Below, in pieces: positions 22,679 through 38,033 of a DNA stretch of 64,000 nt. Under the pieces are notes generated by a model. The model saw nothing but the letters and a program-made list of their open reading frames with translations, was not told the DNA's origin and ran no database searches. The stretch lies in IMG/VR virus record IMGVR_UViG_3300032288_005212, positions 1 through 64,000 of that record; one strand, 5' to 3'. The stretch comes from a virus. The stretch's first letter is position 1, and every line of letters begins with the position of its first letter. Both the position numbers and the translations under genes were made by a program.

Positions 22679-23959
22679 TCAAAATGTTGGCGCAGCCACT
22701 TCAAAGCTATAAAGAGCATATCTGATCGCATCTGCCATGTGGCTAGAACTGTCATGGAGTGGCTTTTCTTTTATGAGATTTGGGTTTGGGTCCCAGCGAT
22801 ACTGGTCAAGAGTTCTCAATACCTCTCCACATGATTGATCTACGATTAATTTATCATTTTCAACTAAAGATGCTACATATCCAATGCCATCAATTACAGA
22901 TTTCTTTGCATTTTCAGTAGTAATATCATAGTTTTGTGCAAAATCATAGCGCGTTTGCGCGGCAGCCGAATCAATAAAGCAATAATCCACATCACGACGC
23001 TGAATAATTTCAGATATATGGCGAGCGTGCTCTTCTGTTGTACGCTCCGCAGCATAATACTCCTCTAAACAGTAGTACTTTTCCCCATCATAGGCAAAAA
23101 CACAGAAGGCAGTTGGGTCCTTAAAGCCAATATCAATACCCGCGATAATATCCATTCCTCGAATATCAAGACTCGATAGATCCGCTACGCACTTCTCATA
23201 GTCAAAGTTCCATATCTGGCCTTGGAAAATATTAAAGTCTGCTTCGTACTCCTGAGCAAATTCGGCAGAAGACATACTTCGACGAGCTTCATCAATGTCA
23301 CTTACAGCAGCTCGAGGATTGTCCTTCCAAGTTGCTTTTATCGAAGCCCATTCGCTAAACTCATCAGTAAAGCCACGAGCGAAAAAACGGCTAAACCAAT
23401 TATTACGGCCCCGAGGAGTGGAGATAAATAAAGCTTTACTGCCCGGTTTGTCGAGTGTCGGCCGAATAGCCACGTTAAAAGCAGACTCACCATCAGCGAG
23501 TGCAGCTTCGTCAAATAGAACAAAATCATAAGAACGTCCTACTACTGAATCGATTTGATTCACTGAGCCGAGTCGTATCGTTGATCCGTTCGCCATTTCA
23601 ATTACACGATCTTTTGCGTTATCCTTTGATACCTCAAGATCAAAATGCTTTATGAGATTTCTTTGCAAATCAAAACTAATCTGGCTAAGATTATAGTTTG
23701 GTGATACAATCAATACATGAGAGTTCGGAACAAGCGAAACACACTGAGCGATGATATTTCCAATATATGTTTTTCCTTGTCGACGAGATAAAGCGCCCAC
23801 AACAAAACGATATTTTGGATTATTAAGTGCATTAATTAAGGCGATCTGAGAAGGAATAGGATCTATTCTTAATAAATCTAAATATCCAGTAATAGGTACT
23901 TTCAAAAAATCGCCCTTTAGTACTCGATCAGTTATTATATCTTTTCGGCTAATTTCCAT
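22679..23959 (-). CDS. terL: terminase large subunit
   Basis: 426 residues. ATPase: Walker A 'ALSRRQGKT' (56-64), Walker B 'VLFDE' (147-151), coupling motif 'FISTPRG' (178-184). RNase H-like nuclease: Asp276 ('IDIGFKDPT'), Asp330 ('FIDSAAA') and Asp410 ('HMADAIRY'). It pumps DNA into the prohead and cuts the concatemer. It is encoded between the small Cys-rich genes and the HNH/portal genes. A complete active-site set is present. Confidence 0.95.
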   Translation of the reverse strand: MEISRKDIITDRVLKGDFLKVPITGYLDLLRIDPIPSQIALINALNNPKYRFVVGALSRRQGKTYIGNIIAQCVSLVPNSHVLIVSPNYNLSQISFDLQRNLIKHFDLEVSKDNAKDRVIEMANGSTIRLGSVNQIDSVVGRSYDFVLFDEAALADGESAFNVAIRPTLDKPGSKALFISTPRGRNNWFSRFFARGFTDEFSEWASIKATWKDNPRAAVSDIDEARRSMSSAEFAQEYEADFNIFQGQIWNFDYEKCVADLSSLDIRGMDIIAGIDIGFKDPTAFCVFAYDGEKYYCLEEYYAAERTTEEHARHISEIIQRRDVDYCFIDSAAAQTRYDFAQNYDITTENAKKSVIDGIGYVASLVENDKLIVDQSCGEVLRTLDQYRWDPNPNLIKEKPLHDSSSHMADAIRYALYSFEVAAPTF

Positions 23960-28784: not shown

Positions 28785-28914
28785 GATAAAATTTTTGGAA
28801 GGGTTAATTTAGATTATTAAGCGCCTTTCGAGTTGAAAAAATCCCAAAGTTGCGCGTGAAGGTGTGCGCCCGGCTGTGTGAATATTACCAGTCTCGGAAC
28901 CGCCCCTCCCCACC

Positions 28915-28931
28915 TGGCACGCCCCTTGCAT
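28915..28931 (+). promoter_or_regulatory. sigma-54 type promoter (-24/-12), perfect match
   Basis: TGGCACG-CCCC-TTGCAT. The invariant GG (28916-28917) and GC (28928-28929) are 10 bp apart, as RpoN requires. It lies in the divergent gap before the first plus-strand gene. Activator sites are not identified. Confidence 0.65.
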
Positions 28932-28941
28932 GTTCAAAACC

Positions 28942-28957
28942 TGGCACGAAATTTTCC
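28942..28957 (+). promoter_or_regulatory. degenerate sigma-54 type site
   Basis: TGGCACG-AAAT-TTTCC, 27 bp after the perfect copy. The -24 half is perfect; the -12 GC is replaced by TC, so it is probably weak or inactive. Confidence 0.35.
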
Positions 28958-28967
28958 ACAGCAAAAT

Positions 28968-28979
28968 GGTAATATTACC
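28968..28979 (+). promoter_or_regulatory. 12-bp palindrome GGTAATATTACC abutting -35
   Basis: Perfect palindrome ending exactly 2 nt before the -35 of the promoter at 28982. Candidate operator or activator site; the same 2-nt spacing recurs at 29905, 30346, 35331 and 36787. Confidence 0.65.
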
Positions 28980-28981
28980 AC

Positions 28982-29010
28982 TTGCCTTTGCCCAAAGCCA
29001 CCACTATACT
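28982..29010 (+). promoter_or_regulatory. sigma-70 promoter for HNH gene
   Basis: TTGCCT (28982-28987), 17 nt, TATACT (29005-29010), 27 nt before the HNH start. Confidence 0.7.
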
Positions 29011-29036
29011 GTGCCCATCACATAGAGGAACACGTC

Positions 29037-29345
29037 ATGCCGAAGATCACCCAAGCCCAAGAGTATATGTGGAAGCCCGCGATGGAAGCCTACAATTCTT
29101 GCTGTGGCGGATGCGGCAGCCCGCTTGATCTGGAATACGATCACATTGTGCCCCGTTGCCTTGGCGGTTCCGATCATGTTTCTAATATTCAAATCCTGTG
29201 CCATCATTGCAACCAACACAAAGGCAAGGTAGCCTTTCCCAAGGTATCGCCCCGTATGCCTGAGATGTCGATTCCGCAGATTCTCGAGAATCGCAAGGCC
29301 TTTGTGTACTCGATCAGAACATGGAAAATTACCATTGCATCCTGA
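29037..29345 (+). CDS. HNH endonuclease
   Basis: 102 residues from ATG 29037, preceded by GAGGA and by the promoter at 28982. Metal-binding Cys23/Cys26 ('CGGCGSPL'), the 'DHIVPRCLGGSDHVSNIQILCHHCNQHKG' core (Asp35-His36, Asn50, Cys55, Cys58) and a basic end make a complete HNH fold. A free-standing homing-type or host-DNA nuclease are both possible. Its 3' end contains the next promoter. Confidence 0.88.
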   Translation: MPKITQAQEYMWKPAMEAYNSCCGGCGSPLDLEYDHIVPRCLGGSDHVSNIQILCHHCNQHKGKVAFPKVSPRMPEMSIPQILENRKAFVYSIRTWKITIAS

Positions 29346-29363
29346 TTCGACCTACCCTATACT
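29335..29363 (+). promoter_or_regulatory. sigma-70 promoter inside 3' end of HNH gene
   Basis: TTGCAT (29335-29340), 17 nt, TATACT (29358-29363). It is preceded by GGAAAATTACC, a variant of the promoter palindrome. Confidence 0.65.
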
Positions 29364-29391
29364 GACTCCACCTAAACAAGGAAACGCAAAC

Positions 29392-29613
29392 ATGAACGCA
29401 CAACAGATCCTCGACGTACTCAAAACCGGCGTGTACTTCGTCACGTTCGAGAAGGACAACGGAGAAATCCGCAGCATTAAGGGCTCGGCCCCTACTACTG
29501 CGAACATTCGCACAGATGGAATCGTTCCCATTGTGGAAGATGGAACAGGAGCATGGAAATCCTTCCGCGCTTCTGCTATGCTCACGATCGTACCCGAAAC
29601 CCTTGTACTCTAA
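29392..29613 (+). CDS. small SH3-like beta protein
   Basis: 73 residues from ATG 29392 (AAGGAAA upstream). 'ILDVLKTGVYFVTFEKDNGEIRSIKGSA' resembles the small phage beta-barrel family that includes DUF2693-type proteins (recall). No catalytic motif. First gene of a short chain of three. Confidence 0.6.
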   Translation: MNAQQILDVLKTGVYFVTFEKDNGEIRSIKGSAPTTANIRTDGIVPIVEDGTGAWKSFRASAMLTIVPETLVL

Positions 29614-29623
29614 GGAATACGCC

Positions 29624-29737
29624 ATGAACAATTGCAAATCGTTCGCCCAATACCTCGCCCTGATCGCAAACCAAAAGCAACGGCAACGGCCCGCGATCTT
29701 CTGGCCCGTACCCTCCAGCAAGAGGAAGGCGGCATGA
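29624..29737 (+). CDS. 37-residue basic peptide
   Basis: ATG 29624, ten bases after the previous stop, AAGGAA upstream. It ends in an ATGA overlap with the next start. Function unknown; kept because of the coupled arrangement. Confidence 0.45.
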   Translation: MNNCKSFAQYLALIANQKQRQRPAIFWPVPSSKRKAA

Positions 29738-29922
29738 AAGACTTTAACATGAACCCGGAACTCTATCGCAAATTCCGGGCCGATCTTCTGGGATGGTGTG
29801 CCTTTTATCGCGCATACTCTGCGAACGAATGCGCGACGGTTGGCAAGGTAGCCCACCGTGCAATCCGCCGACAGATGGCCCACCTTCGTCAATCCTACTT
29901 TGTGGGGAATATTACCTATTGA
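29734..29922 (+). CDS. 62-residue helical protein, unknown
   Basis: ATG 29734 with GAGGAAGG upstream and ATGA overlap with the previous gene. Helical, Arg/Ala-rich ('YRKFRADLLGWCAFYRAYSANECATVG'). Its last codons run into the palindrome at 29905. Function unknown. Confidence 0.6.
   Translation: MKDFNMNPELYRKFRADLLGWCAFYRAYSANECATVGKVAHRAIRRQMAHLRQSYFVGNITY
29905..29916 (+). promoter_or_regulatory. promoter palindrome (GGGAATATTACC)
   Basis: One change from the perfect palindrome, ending 2 nt before the -35 at 29919. It lies within the 3' end of the preceding gene. Confidence 0.55.
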
Positions 29923-29948
29923 CGAGATGCCTGGCCGTATGTCATAAT
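29919..29948 (+). promoter_or_regulatory. sigma-70 promoter
   Basis: TTGACG, 18 nt, CATAAT (29943-29948). It reads into the regulatory gap with the sigma-54 site and composite element 1. Confidence 0.6.
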
Positions 29949-29979
29949 GGTGGCAACGGCCAGGGCCGCGCCGAAAACC

Positions 29980-29996
29980 TGGCACGCTTATTGCAT
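29980..29996 (+). promoter_or_regulatory. sigma-54 type promoter, perfect match
   Basis: TGGCACG-CTTA-TTGCAT with GG (29981-29982) and GC (29993-29994) 10 bp apart. The predicted start, about 12 nt on, falls in the CCTAGG of composite element 1. Confidence 0.65.
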
Positions 29997-30003
29997 CAGT
30001 TGA

Positions 30004-30031
30004 CCTAGGGCCAAGATGCGAATCATTCTCA
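30004..30031 (+). promoter_or_regulatory. composite element copy 1: CCTAGG-N7-TGCGAATCATTCTCA
   Basis: CCTAGG 30004-30009; 15-mer 30017-30031 matching the 7-1-7 Fur-box pattern (TGATAAT-N-ATTATCA) at most positions. See finding for the seven-copy comparison. Confidence 0.7.
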
Positions 30032-30107
30032 TTTAGGCCTGGTCCGCGCCGATTTTACCACACTAAAATATGCGCTGTCAATACCTCAAGAATGTGAACA
30101 AATACCA

Positions 30108-30136
30108 TTGCAATTCGAGTCTTCCTCTGTCATACT
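30108..30136 (+). promoter_or_regulatory. sigma-70 promoter
   Basis: TTGCAA (30108-30113), 17 nt, CATACT (30131-30136). Flanks resemble the promoter at 29335, including AATACCA just upstream. Confidence 0.65.
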
Positions 30137-30161
30137 GATCCCACCAGATAGAGGAAAACAT

Positions 30162-30350
30162 ATGTCACACGTAGCCTTTGAACTTCGCAACGAACGCAGC
30201 AACATAGACTGGGCCGTATATATCGACGGCAAACACTGGAAAACCTTTCCGGGCGATCGCCACCTTGCAGAATACAAGGTCAAGGAAATGTGCAAGCGGA
30301 AGACCGCCGAGACTGGCCGTCGTTGGGATGTGGTCGCTGTCCACTGGTAA
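30162..30350 (+). CDS. 62-residue protein, unknown
   Basis: ATG 30162 behind GAGGAAAA. A mixed alpha/beta, charged protein ('DWAVYIDGKHWKTFPGD...WDVVAVHW'). Its stop codon lies inside the palindrome at 30346-30357, so coding and control DNA overlap. Function unknown. Confidence 0.65.
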   Translation: MSHVAFELRNERSNIDWAVYIDGKHWKTFPGDRHLAEYKVKEMCKRKTAETGRRWDVVAVHW

Positions 30351-30357
30351 TATTACC
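30346..30357 (+). promoter_or_regulatory. 12-bp palindrome GGTAATATTACC abutting -35
   Basis: Perfect palindrome, 2 nt before TTGACG at 30360, overlapping the stop codon of the preceding gene. Confidence 0.65.
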
Positions 30358-30359
30358 GC

Positions 30360-30388
30360 TTGACGGCGAGCGATTGATCCGCCATACT
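30360..30388 (+). promoter_or_regulatory. sigma-70 promoter
   Basis: TTGACG, 17 nt, CATACT (30383-30388). Drives the 79-residue gene and those after it. Confidence 0.7.
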
Positions 30389-30415
30389 GTGCCCATGTTC
30401 AACGGAGATCAGACA

Positions 30416-30655
30416 ATGCAAAACGAAATCCGCGCTGCACAATTCCAAGCCGCACAAGCCAGCTTGGCCGCCTTTGACTGCTACCGCACTGCGAAGCGTG
30501 AGATCATCAAGGGAGATCGCCAGATCGGCCAGCTCTGGAGCCGGTGGGGCGATATGCTGATGGCGATCAACGCGAAGGCGAACGATGACATTCGTTTTCT
30601 GGAATGGGCGCAAAGCATGGAAGAAGCCTACGTTGACGGGTACTATGGGGAGTGA
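30416..30655 (+). CDS. 79-residue helical protein, unknown
   Basis: ATG 30416 with GGAGAT upstream. Ala-rich helical N-terminus then 'KGDRQIGQLWSRWGDMLMAINAKANDDIRFLEWAQSM'. Unknown function; first of three closely spaced genes. Confidence 0.65.
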   Translation: MQNEIRAAQFQAAQASLAAFDCYRTAKREIIKGDRQIGQLWSRWGDMLMAINAKANDDIRFLEWAQSMEEAYVDGYYGE

Positions 30656-30657
30656 TT

Positions 30658-30849
30658 ATGAGAATCGGAAAACTGCCGAACCGCGGCATAGTTGACAAAC
30701 TACTAGTAATAGTTCAAGGCCTGGCAACAGTGGCGGATGGCCTAATCATGATCGGCAGCTTCGGATTCTATGGTTCGATGATGTCGATGGATATTTCACG
30801 GTATCGTGCATGGCGCATGATTCAGAGAGGCAGAAAAAATGCAGTGTGA
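30658..30849 (+). CDS. 63-residue protein with one membrane-like segment
   Basis: ATG 30658, two bases after the previous stop, GGGGAGTG upstream. Hydrophobic segment about residues 18-42, basic ends. It overlaps the next start by 11 bp. Unknown. Confidence 0.6.
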   Translation: MRIGKLPNRGIVDKLLVIVQGLATVADGLIMIGSFGFYGSMMSMDISRYRAWRMIQRGRKNAV

Positions 30850-31036
30850 ACACCAGTTCAAACCCGGAAAGATTGTAATCGGCACGCCAACAAATGGTAG
30901 CAGTTACAATCCGAAAATGTGGGGCCGTGGCGAAGGCATCTGGCTCGATGGTCGAAAGGCCAGGCTAGTTCCATGCGAAAAGTGTGCCAAGTGTGGTAAG
31001 ACTCTTGTAGACCATAATTTGTACTACGGCTGGTAA
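30839..31036 (+). CDS. small zinc-ribbon-like protein
   Basis: 65 residues: 'CEHQF' at the start and 'PCEKCAKCGKTLVDHNLYYGW' at the end provide CxxH and CxxCxxC pairs. Probably a zinc-stabilised small regulator or adaptor. It ends just before the sigma-54 site at 31040. Confidence 0.6.
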   Translation: MQCEHQFKPGKIVIGTPTNGSSYNPKMWGRGEGIWLDGRKARLVPCEKCAKCGKTLVDHNLYYGW

Positions 31037-31039
31037 ATC

Positions 31040-31056
31040 TGGCACGCGTCTTGCAG
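31040..31056 (+). promoter_or_regulatory. sigma-54 type promoter, perfect match
   Basis: TGGCACG-CGTC-TTGCAG, GG (31041-31042) and GC (31053-31054) 10 bp apart. CCTAGG of composite copy 2 begins 12 nt after the GC, within 1 nt of the same phase as at 29980. Confidence 0.65.
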
Positions 31057-31064
31057 GGCGAGGC

Positions 31065-31092
31065 CCTAGGTAGTTGTTGCGAATTATTCTCA
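31065..31092 (+). promoter_or_regulatory. composite element copy 2
   Basis: CCTAGG 31065-31070, 7 nt, TGCGAATTATTCTCA 31078-31092. Confidence 0.7.
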
Positions 31093-31122
31093 TTTAGCGC
31101 GCTTGACAAAAAGGCGCGCTTC

Positions 31123-31178: not shown

Positions 31179-31208
31179 TTGACTCCTGGGATTGTCAGTC
31201 TGTATAAT
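31179..31208 (+). promoter_or_regulatory. sigma-70 promoter
   Basis: TTGACT (31179-31184), 18 nt, TATAAT (31203-31208), in the ATTCTTGACT context also seen in the minus-strand promoters. Confidence 0.75.
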
Positions 31209-31236: not shown

Positions 31237-31461
31237 ATGCATCACTACACTGAAACTCTGGAATCTGGCAACTGGCTCATCGAACTCAGCCCGACCACTG
31301 AATACGGGTATTTTGAGAATCAAAAAACCGGCAGCGGTGGCGGCCTTTGGTTTGAAGGAAACGAGCTGGTAGACTATGATGGTGTTCTGTCGCTGCCAGT
31401 AGCAGTTGCAAGCGCGCTCACTGGCGCTGGATATGTACTCGGAGAGGAGTTTTTTGCGTGA
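31237..31461 (+). CDS. 74-residue protein, unknown
   Basis: ATG 31237 chosen because GGAGAT is 7 nt upstream and earlier starts lie too near the -10. Beta-rich ('TESGNWLIEL...GLWFEGNELVDYDG'). It overlaps the next (GTG) start by 4 bp. Unknown. Confidence 0.62.
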   Translation: MHHYTETLESGNWLIELSPTTEYGYFENQKTGSGGGLWFEGNELVDYDGVLSLPVAVASALTGAGYVLGEEFFA

Positions 31462-32073: not shown

Positions 32074-32101
32074 CCTAGGTGCCAAATGAGAATAATTCTC
32101 A
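32074..32101 (+). promoter_or_regulatory. composite element copy 3, most symmetric
   Basis: CCTAGG 32074-32079, 7 nt, TGAGAATAATTCTCA 32087-32101. With its flanks (32084-32104) the 15-mer is a perfect 10-1-10 inverted repeat. Confidence 0.72.
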
Positions 32102-32114
32102 TTTGGCTGTCACT

Positions 32115-33909: not shown

Positions 33910-33931
33910 TCGTTGTTGAGAATCATTCTTA
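33904..33931 (+). promoter_or_regulatory. composite element copy 4
   Basis: CCTAGG 33904-33909, 7 nt, TGAGAATCATTCTTA 33917-33931. Confidence 0.68.
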
Positions 33932-33943
33932 TTTCCGCGCGGA

Positions 33944-34267: not shown

Positions 34268-34579
34268 ATGTCGCTCTACACTGAGTCGATGGTGTCGGAA
34301 CTGATGGCTCGCGCGAGCTGGTCGTATGATGACGCGGTTGCGTTCGCTGAGAAGCATTCCAGCGTGTCGGTACGTTCGGTTATCAGCAAAATCAAGTCTC
34401 TGAAGCTGGACTACACCGCGAAGCCGAAAGCTGCGACGGCGAAGACTGACAAGGTGCGGAAGTCGGAGATCGTGGGCGAGATCGCACTCGCGCTCGGTAT
34501 TCAGGCTGACGCAATCTCGGGCCTTGCCAAGGCTGACGCCGCTTGCCTTCGCGTTCTTCTGGCGAAGGTTGCGGGCTAA
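34268..34579 (+). CDS. small HTH-like DNA-binding protein (paralogue 1)
   Basis: 103 residues from ATG 34268 (GGAGAG upstream); an in-frame ATG at 34163 (GGGGAAG upstream) would add 35 residues. Residues about 1-45 ('SMVSELMARASWSYDDAVAFAEKHSSVSVRSVISKIKSL') form a three-helix HTH-like unit with the recognition helix in 'SVRSVISKIKSL'. The C-terminus ('KSEIVGEIALALGIQADAISGLAKADA') repeats in the genes at 37226 and 37734. I infer a sequence-specific regulator. Target unknown. Confidence 0.65.
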   Translation: MSLYTESMVSELMARASWSYDDAVAFAEKHSSVSVRSVISKIKSLKLDYTAKPKAATAKTDKVRKSEIVGEIALALGIQADAISGLAKADAACLRVLLAKVAG

Positions 34580-34779
34580 TGGTTCGGGTCGCTGCCATCT
34601 TGGGAACCGGGGCAATGTGCATTGCCCCCTTTTTCATCGACACGCTTCCTGGCAAATTGTGTGCCATATGCGGCCTGTTACTTTTGACAATACAGGCACT
34701 TGATCTGCGCGCTTACAATCTGGTACTCTTAAATCTGGTCGGCATTGCTGGCTACACTTTTTCAAGCATGGGAGCCTAG
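34579..34779 (+). CDS. small membrane protein, conserved phage type
   Basis: 66 residues, TAATG overlap with the previous gene. Two hydrophobic segments (about 2-18 and 23-42) plus a third weak one; pattern 'ILGTGAMCIAPFFIDTLPGK' recurs in phages (recall). Unknown role, perhaps envelope remodelling. Confidence 0.62.
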   Translation: MVRVAAILGTGAMCIAPFFIDTLPGKLCAICGLLLLTIQALDLRAYNLVLLNLVGIAGYTFSSMGA

Positions 34780-35405: not shown

Positions 35406-36125
35406 ATGGCTAAAAAGCAATTCTATCTGATCATCGATACCGAAACGACAATCGATGAAAAAGTCGCAGATTTCGGTGCCGTTATCGTTGATCGGAAAGG
35501 CCGCATTGCTGCCCAATGTGGAATTCTCATTAATGGCATTTACAATGATCGGGAAAACCATCCGCTCTTTTATAATGAATACTCGGGCGACCTTTGGAAA
35601 AAGTCGAGCCTTGATAAGCGATATAATAACTATTCGGCAATGCTCGCCAACGGTTCCCGTATGCTCGCATCAATTCCTGCGATTAATACTTGGCTCGCAA
35701 AAGCGGCAAACAAGTTTAATCCCACACTGACCGCATATAATCTGGCATTCGATCTCGGTAAATGCGTCAATACTGGAATTGATCTTTCCTATTTCGAGAA
35801 TCGGTTTTGCCTTTGGCACGCTGCATTTAATAAATGGGCGCATACTAAAAACTATCGCAATTTCGCTCTACAAATGCACGCTTTTAATGCTCCGACTAAA
35901 TTGCAAAATATGTCGTTTAAAACGAATGCGGAAACAATGGCACGTTTTATTACTAATTCGCCCGATATGCCTGATGAACCGCATACCGCACTCGAAGACG
36001 CAATCTATTATGAATTGCCAATTCTGAAACGATTAATCGAAACGACAGAGCGTAATGTATTTATGAATCCCGAGCCTTTTGACTGGCGCAAGGTTCAGGT
36101 CAAAGATTGGTTTACCGCTAAATAG
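35406..36125 (+). CDS. DnaQ/RNase T-like 3'-5' exonuclease
   Basis: 239 residues with DEDD-type motifs: Asp11-x-Glu13 in 'IIDTETT', 'LTAYNLAFDLGKC' (ExoII) and 'PHTALEDAIYYELPIL' (ExoIII, H..ED type). A stand-alone proofreading-like or RNA-trimming exonuclease. No polymerase domain is attached. It is the largest gene of the plus-strand block and has its own promoter. Confidence 0.82.
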   Translation: MAKKQFYLIIDTETTIDEKVADFGAVIVDRKGRIAAQCGILINGIYNDRENHPLFYNEYSGDLWKKSSLDKRYNNYSAMLANGSRMLASIPAINTWLAKAANKFNPTLTAYNLAFDLGKCVNTGIDLSYFENRFCLWHAAFNKWAHTKNYRNFALQMHAFNAPTKLQNMSFKTNAETMARFITNSPDMPDEPHTALEDAIYYELPILKRLIETTERNVFMNPEPFDWRKVQVKDWFTAK

Positions 36126-36822: not shown

Positions 36823-36850
36823 CCTAGGTAGATGATGCGAATCATTCTCA
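36823..36850 (+). promoter_or_regulatory. composite element copy 7
   Basis: CCTAGG 36823-36828, 7 nt, TGCGAATCATTCTCA 36836-36850; the 15-mer is identical to copy 1. Gap 36795-37225 has no gene: it holds this element, three repeat B copies and a promoter. Confidence 0.7.
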
Positions 36851-36915
36851 TCTCGCTCCTAGCTTGCGCCTAGCAAGAACCATGCCAACATTTGTGGGAA
36901 TAATGCCAGCGCTTC

Positions 36916-37225: not shown

Positions 37226-37522
37226 ATGAGTGCTTATTCTAATTCGATGGTCACCGAGCTCTGCGCCTCCGCGCACACTTATGAAAGCGCAGCAGCTTTT
37301 GCTAGCAAGCACAATCTGTCGACGCGCAGTGTTGTGAGCAAGATCAAGTCGCTTGGCCTGGACTATAGGAAAAAAGAAGTAGTTTCTGTTAGCCAGACGC
37401 GGATTCGGAAGGCTGACGTGGTTGCAGAGATTGCCGCCCGGCTTTCGCTTGACAGCGAAAAGTTGGCGGGGCTGGGGAAAGCGGACGCTGCTAGTTTGCA
37501 GCAGCTTTTGAAAGCTATTTAA
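37226..37522 (+). CDS. small HTH-like DNA-binding protein (paralogue 2)
   Basis: 98 residues; ATG 37226 preferred over 37214 because GGAGA lies about 5 nt upstream. 'SNSMVTELCASAHTYESAAAFASKHNLSTRSVVSKIKSLGLDY' matches paralogue 1 closely, and 'RKADVVAEIAARLSLDSEKLAGLGKADA' matches its C-terminus. Own promoter and terminator, so a single-gene unit, as expected for a regulator. Confidence 0.68.
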   Translation: MSAYSNSMVTELCASAHTYESAAAFASKHNLSTRSVVSKIKSLGLDYRKKEVVSVSQTRIRKADVVAEIAARLSLDSEKLAGLGKADAASLQQLLKAI

Positions 37523-37733: not shown

Positions 37734-38033
37734 ATGTATACAGAAGATGAAGTAACTATTCTACAGCAATATCCGAGTCTTTCCGTGGAAGAACTGGCAG
37801 CTCAGCTGGGACGCAGTGAGAGATCAATTATTGGAAAGCTGAGTCGCCTGGGAATTTATCAGCGAAAAACCTATGTGAGCAAAACTGGTTCACCACCCAT
37901 TAGCAAACTGGAAATTGTGGCTGAGATAGAGTCTGCATTGCAGATGAAGCTTGAAGGGCTAGAAAAGAGTCCAAAAGGTGTATTGCTTTCTTTGCGAGAT
38001 AAACTGAGCGGCGGGGCATTTCCAAATTGCTAG
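37734..38033 (+). CDS. small HTH-like DNA-binding protein (paralogue 3)
   Basis: 99 residues, ATG 37734 with GGAGGG upstream. 'DEVTILQQYPSLSVEELAAQLGRSERSIIGKLSRLGIY' is an HTH with recognition helix 'SERSIIGKLSRL'. The C-terminal 'SKLEIVAEIESALQMKLEGLEKSPKG' parallels the other two paralogues. Last gene of the plus-strand block, followed by a strong terminator. Confidence 0.72.
   Translation: MYTEDEVTILQQYPSLSVEELAAQLGRSERSIIGKLSRLGIYQRKTYVSKTGSPPISKLEIVAEIESALQMKLEGLEKSPKGVLLSLRDKLSGGAFPNC

Follow-up and report, generated by a model that had tools for sequence, protein, structure and literature searches.

Predicted sigma-54 sites and the T5 terminal repeat

The terminal repeat of phage T5 is the DNA that is injected first, and it carries the pre-early genes. 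All three classes of T5 genes are reportedly transcribed by sigma-70 polymerase (PMC7472727). The DnaA boxes and palindromes of the injection stop signal have already been published, together with the proposal that host components at this signal block second-step transfer (PMC13250531). So far, sigma-70 has been the factor to which T5 transcription is ascribed, and the open-access papers searched describe neither sigma-54 sites in T5-like phages nor phage arrays of RpoN sites.

Sigma-54 (RpoN) polymerase forms a stable closed complex on a -24/-12 element and does not start transcription without an activator. In E. coli, sigma-54 is bound at no fewer than 135 places in a transcriptionally inactive state, with more than 250 sites estimated; these silent sites occur in any orientation and largely within host genes, where bound sigma-54 has no roadblock effect (PMC4591121). 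The phage sites considered here share with bacterial sigma-54 promoters the TGGCACG-N4-TTGC core, the exact spacing and the flanking preferences, but differ in their mixed orientation, tandem and face-to-face pairs, arrays and absence of a known activator site. Like the silent E. coli sites, they occur in any orientation and may be bound without transcription, whereas they lie mostly in gene gaps, are optimal and are often clustered.

Genome context of the locus

The window is a stretch of 64,000 nucleotides (positions 1 to 64,000 of the 106,084-bp virus record IMGVR_UViG_3300032288_005212) that encodes a T5-type terminase large subunit (22679-23959; 49% identical, at 98% coverage, to those of Vibrio T5-like phages). 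On its + strand, a left-end element, AGTCTCGGAACCGCCCC (28890-28906), corresponds to the left end of the T5 genome (T5 28-42), whose form AGTCTGCTAACCGCC starts at nucleotide 28; most relatives carry TNACCGCCCC, usually preceded by AGTCT, at the matching position. The element likely marks the start of the terminal-repeat (first-step-transfer, pre-early) region. Since it is common to the relatives and T5, the DNA from about 28.86 kb onward is equated with the T5 terminal repeat, a position that depends on the left-end element because the repeat itself is not visible in a single-copy assembly. The assignment of the sites to a phage early region agrees with what is seen in relatives with known hosts. 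With the T5 terminal repeat and stop signal (AY543070) the locus shares genome position, Fur-like repeats and the left-end element. LexA- and DnaA-box-like sites are present in T5 as well, but no exact sigma-54 site, and its gene classes are reported to be sigma-70 dependent.

The region begins with a small HNH endonuclease gene (29037-29345), followed behind sites 2 and 3 by genes of unassigned function for 62 aa (30162-30350) and 74 aa (31237-31461). Further along lie genes for an exonuclease-like protein (35406-36125; its PHROGs hit, a DNA polymerase exonuclease subunit, is weak at E=0.004) and for a 98-aa protein (37226-37522; paralogue at 34268-34579), all five genes being on the + strand. 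No RNA families were detected in the region. A scan of pre-early proteins in the window recognised neither A1 nor A2, and no A1-sized ORF is present there, so that only relatedness to T5 is claimed, not family membership of the Demerecviridae type.

Predicted sigma-54 recognition sites in the window and its relatives

A pattern scan confirmed the three copies of TGGCACG-N4-TTGC and the degenerate fourth that a sequence-only reading of this DNA had reported. All are on the + strand: site 1 (TGGCACGCCCCTTGC, 28915-28929) lies 8 bp past the left-end element and is followed after 27 bp by the degenerate tandem copy, which has one mismatch (TGGCACGAAATTTTC, 28942-28956), while sites 2 (TGGCACGCTTATTGC) and 3 (TGGCACGCGTCTTGC) occupy 29980-29994 and 31040-31054. 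The GG-to-GC distance in these sites is 10 bp, as required for a sigma-54 (RpoN) promoter. The three exact copies, within 28915-31054, have no further exact counterpart anywhere in the 106,084-bp record, on either strand, and the reversed pattern does not occur in it at all. Weaker matches on the - strand comprise a one-mismatch site, TGGCATGGTTCTTGC (36873-36887), adjoining a Fur-like element (36823-36852), and TGGCACACAATTTGC at 34652, inside a gene. As had been claimed, the four + strand copies all lie outside called genes, in gaps between small + strand genes, and read in the gene direction; the distance from predicted +1 to the next gene start is 69-171 bp over all four and 96-171 bp for the three exact sites. 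A chance origin was judged very unlikely, and the figures bear this out, with about 0.008 exact matches expected in the 11.4-kb region and a probability of at least three of about 1e-7 under a first-order Markov model.

Relatives were found in viral contigs through two proteins of the region (37226-37522 and 35406-36125, the latter yielding 80 relatives); because they were chosen by protein, the loci are not selected for the motif. The 104 related loci (1.32 Mb) contain 54 exact motifs versus none for the reversed pattern, a control that preserves composition but not base order, and neither the N3 nor the N5 spacing variant has a match in the same loci. Among the larger related records, which were checked whole, seven of 15 contain exact sites. 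The flanks outside the search pattern also fit the sigma-54 consensus, the 37 independent sites having A at -3 in 27 cases, a pyrimidine at -1 in 32 and W at +1 in 28. On this sequence evidence the motif is a real, selected element, of which the host sigma-54 (RpoN) holoenzyme is likely the best candidate ligand.

Cultured T5-like phages

Conservation extends to cultured T5-like phages of Vibrio, Aeromonas and Pectobacterium, with five exact sites in VCPH, three each in vB_ValS_X1 and PG07, two each in VF16 and pVp-1, and one each in Kronos, Ceto, IW18, phi 3, AhSzq-1 and My1. Across the whole records searched, every exact site falls within the terminal repeat or its counterpart, and a site appears twice in records containing both terminal repeats. 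The Vibrio phages vB_ValS_X1, PG07, VF16, pVp-1, Kronos and VCPH, some of whose sites stand in tandem or face to face, carry the A1/A2/dmp pre-early genes, unlike the window, where A1 and A2 were not recognised. The exact motif is absent from T5, from the Klebsiella, Enterobacter and Proteus relatives, and from Aeromonas phage TS3.

The terminal repeats of 15 cultured T5-like phages also hold 51 Fur-like sites (control 0), 19 LexA-like sites (control 0) and 60 DnaA boxes (control 1), and the sigma-54 site at the Vibrio stop signal is conserved next to DnaA and LexA boxes. These neighbours would suit a host-protein landing pad, in which sigma-54 and the Fur-, LexA- and DnaA-box-like sites would help to halt the entering DNA or to keep the terminal repeat compact, with pre-early proteins later bringing about release, in line with the published transfer-block proposal (PMC13250531). 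Such a pad is improbable as the explanation of the motif: the window sites are spread over 2 kb of pre-early genes and not confined to one stop region, the window region contains no LexA or DnaA boxes, and arrays also occur in unrelated phages not known for two-step entry.

Tandem pairs, face-to-face pairs and arrays

In the relatives, 26 of 63 clusters are multiple, with at least two sites in a 60-bp span. Within such clusters, tandem sites are spaced 25-29 bp apart, face-to-face sites are offset by 18-23 bp (gap 3-8 bp) and a few sites stand back to back; these arrangements recur in separate lineages. A pattern scan for the face-to-face form, which is motif-selected and whose phages are thus not a random sample, returned 94 viral stretches, versus none for the reversed-pattern control and four matches in 257 Gb of bacterial and archaeal genomes, the 94 and the four being raw counts from collections that differ in make-up. 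The dominant gap lengths are 4, 3 and 7. The four genome-contig matches could not be assigned as viral; one of them, L252, is probably bacterial because it has a norB-like gene.

Arrays are present in L166, L245, L227, L163 and L193, reaching 8-12 sites in unrelated phages; L166 has eight exact alternating sites in 180 bp. Whole records show that the sites are mostly clustered at one place per genome. Among the array carriers are a T5-like phage, a relative of Caulobacter phage RW and, together with L201, a further tailed phage whose terminase is of a different kind. For one array phage, the cultured relatives Caulobacter phage RW, Roseobacter phage CRP-901 and MW202545 lack the motif.

Face-to-face dyads with a favoured gap of 3-4 bp, tandem arrays and nearby DnaA boxes resemble operators or iterons, and the motif could accordingly belong to another protein, of the phage iteron or repressor type or from the host, whose operator resembles a sigma-54 element. 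This is improbable, given that the same 11 bases and N4 gap in unrelated phages point to one conserved host ligand and that the flanks match sigma-54 too; moreover, the dyad is nearly absent from bacterial genomes, and seven phage records contain no sigma-54-like DNA-binding domain.

CCTAGG elements and sigma-70 type promoters

All eight CCTAGG copies of the record fall within 30.0-39.8 kb. CCTAGG is part of a composite element, CCTAGG-N10-GAATNATTCTCA, of which the window has five copies with a constant N10. Those with a Fur-box-like palindrome at 30004-30034 and 31065-31095 (+ strand) lie just 3' of sites 2 and 3, and a + strand copy at 32074-32104, with the perfect palindrome AAATGAGAATAATTCTCATTT, is one of three without a sigma-54 site. 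The 7-1-7 palindrome TGAGAATNATTCTCA, the form of a Fur box, is found in the window as a predicted site. The sequence-only reading had CCTAGG begin 11 and 12 nt after the -12 GC at sites 2 and 3, at the expected start point, and had counted this constant phase as support for sigma-54 promoters. The distances are correct (11 and 12 nt after the G, 10 and 11 after the C), but a role of CCTAGG as a sigma-54 start-point element is rejected. Its phase is weak evidence, because CCTAGG belongs to a repeated element of its own, three of whose five copies lack a sigma-54 site, and the site at 28915 has no CCTAGG. Pattern scans of viral contigs for the motif with CCTAGG (30 matches) and for CCTAGG with the Fur-like palindrome (one match, L001, which appeared unrelated) were both near the estimated chance level and were set aside.

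Several sigma-70 type promoters are predicted around these elements. On the + strand, TTGCCT-N17-TATACT (28982-29010), 3' of site 1, precedes the HNH gene, and TTGACT-N18-TATAAT (31179-31208) serves the gene behind site 3, so that the genes behind sites 1 and 3 have predicted sigma-70 type promoters of their own; TTGACG-N18-CATAAT (29919-29948) lies 5' of site 2 and is aimed at it. The antisense promoter TTGACA-N18-TAAAAT (30052-30081, - strand) has its -10 end 18 bp from the Fur-like palindrome. Among independent Fur-like palindromes, 27% have a strong antisense sigma-70 promoter just upstream, versus 8% in shifted controls, and the palindrome often lies exactly 11 bp past the -10. Immediately downstream of sigma-70 promoters, sigma-54 sites are no more frequent than in the control (8% versus 13%), so that a local repressor role is not indicated and the idea that they are repressor-type operators on these promoters is unsupported.

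Possible promoters or docking sites

The reading of the motif as an RpoN promoter stands as regards a selected motif, sigma-54-like flanks and early DNA, but is at odds with the mixed orientation, face-to-face pairs and arrays in relatives. True sigma-54 promoters, at which RpoN polymerase and a host enhancer-binding protein would give pre-early genes or short antisense RNAs a second start, linked to stress, in addition to the sigma-70 promoters, are possible but somewhat doubtful. Consensus and spacing are perfect, all three exact window sites lie in the gene direction 96-171 bp from genes, several divergent-region sites in Vibrio phages read toward pre-early genes, and a face-to-face pair, with its non-overlapping divergent starts, could form a compact two-way promoter. 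Yet by a hand count from gene tables only about 11 of the 21 exact sites in cultured phages point to a gene start no more than 800 bp away, against about 10 that do not, L056 has its four exact sites all antisense and none toward a gene start, the conserved Vibrio stop-signal site is directed into gene 3' ends, and arrays of 8-12 sites cannot all be promoters.

Control by an activator, as first proposed, finds no backing in these records and is further weakened by the sigma-70 type promoters of the genes behind sites 1 and 3 and by the reported sigma-70 dependence of T5. The Sigma54_activat domain is absent from the window record and 17 others (18 records), and searches of the phage records yielded neither an activator nor a sigma-54 domain of phage origin. 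An activator supplied by the host could still act at these sites. A search for upstream enhancer-binding sites showed no enrichment of known activator sites (NtrC-like 3/78 and IHF-like 3/78, control 0, too few to interpret), and the three window sites have no upstream 7-mer in common.

Optimal sites in any orientation, together with arrays, fit docking or trapping better than promoters, and the three co-directional window sites fit promoters equally well. The motif copies are tentatively regarded, with slightly less than even confidence, as orientation-free docking sites that hold host sigma-54 polymerase and have been selected in the first-step-transfer DNA of T5-like phages. Because its closed complex needs an activator, the host enzyme would be held on phage DNA, whether entering or replicating, by optimal sites placed irrespective of strand and doubled in tandem or face to face. 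The bound enzyme would occupy the gaps between pre-early genes, and sigma-54 polymerase would be drawn off host genes as phage copies accumulate. Trapping would need replicated DNA, since three sites per incoming genome cannot titrate the enzyme when E. coli itself has an estimated total of more than 250 (PMC4591121). Docking is opposed by the window itself, which has only three sites, all directed toward genes at a distance of 96-171 bp. A subset of the sites, the three of the window among them, may also act as promoters.

Implications for T5-like phages

Because the conserved arrangements cannot all be gene switches, a T5-like phage probably uses, traps or parks host sigma-54 protein. A broader proposal, rather unlikely as it stands, is that the arrays of optimal RpoN sites in many unrelated phages are purpose-built traps for the host sigma-54 polymerase, which is kept there in silent complexes, and that in T5-like phages these sites are one part of a Fur/LexA/DnaA/RpoN landing pad on first-entering DNA, governing entry, pre-early shut-off or host takeover. 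The conserved sigma-54 sites lie in exactly the DNA concerned in the first-step-transfer stop and the pre-early shut-off of T5. Since the sites occur in phages of genetically workable hosts, such as Vibrio campbellii/harveyi BAA-1116, a role of RpoN is directly testable. Face-to-face and alternating RpoN arrays in unrelated phages would represent a DNA-based handling of a host sigma factor in place of an anti-sigma protein.

The pre-early gaps of the window contain five copies of a composite element in which CCTAGG is followed, after 10 nt, by a Fur-box-like palindrome (palindromes at 30015-30033, 31076-31094, 32085-32103, 33915-33933 and 36834-36852). All eight CCTAGG sites of the record fall within 30.0-39.8 kb, and the remaining 96 kb contains none. 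Fur-box-like repeats with a period of 35 bp also occupy the injection-stop-signal region of T5 (L139, 9552-9710) and of its Klebsiella, Vibrio and Pectobacterium relatives (L140, 11608-11696; L144, 9051-9139; L146, 12187-12333).

The palindrome GGTAATATTACC (28968, 29905 and 30346) directly adjoins, on the upstream side, the -35 of pre-early promoters of the sigma-70 type and is a possible operator for a regulator. Among three small pre-early proteins (34268-34579, 37226-37522 and 37734-38033), two share the motif RSVxSKIKSLxLDY, and the remaining one is similar to GcrA and to regulators of the D5-like kind. The terminal repeats within L139-L156, a set that includes cultured T5-like phages, carry 19 LexA-box-like CTGTATATTTATACAG palindromes, compared with 0 in the control, and DnaA boxes adjoin them. 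Viral loci L163, L166, L193, L201, L227 and L245 carry sigma-54 site arrays, many of them with alternating strand; the phages belong to several lineages, and some of these are not related to T5.

A strong antisense sigma-70 promoter of the TTGACA-N16/18-TAWAAT type is located at 30052-30081 on the minus strand of the window, and viral loci L035, L036, L056, L065, L068, L074 and L103 likewise pair such a promoter with a Fur-like palindrome. Such promoters precede 12 of 45 independent Fur-like palindromes, against 8% in shifted-position controls, with the palindrome frequently exactly 11 bp downstream of the -10. Judged from sequence, this pairing looks like Fur-controlled antisense transcription.
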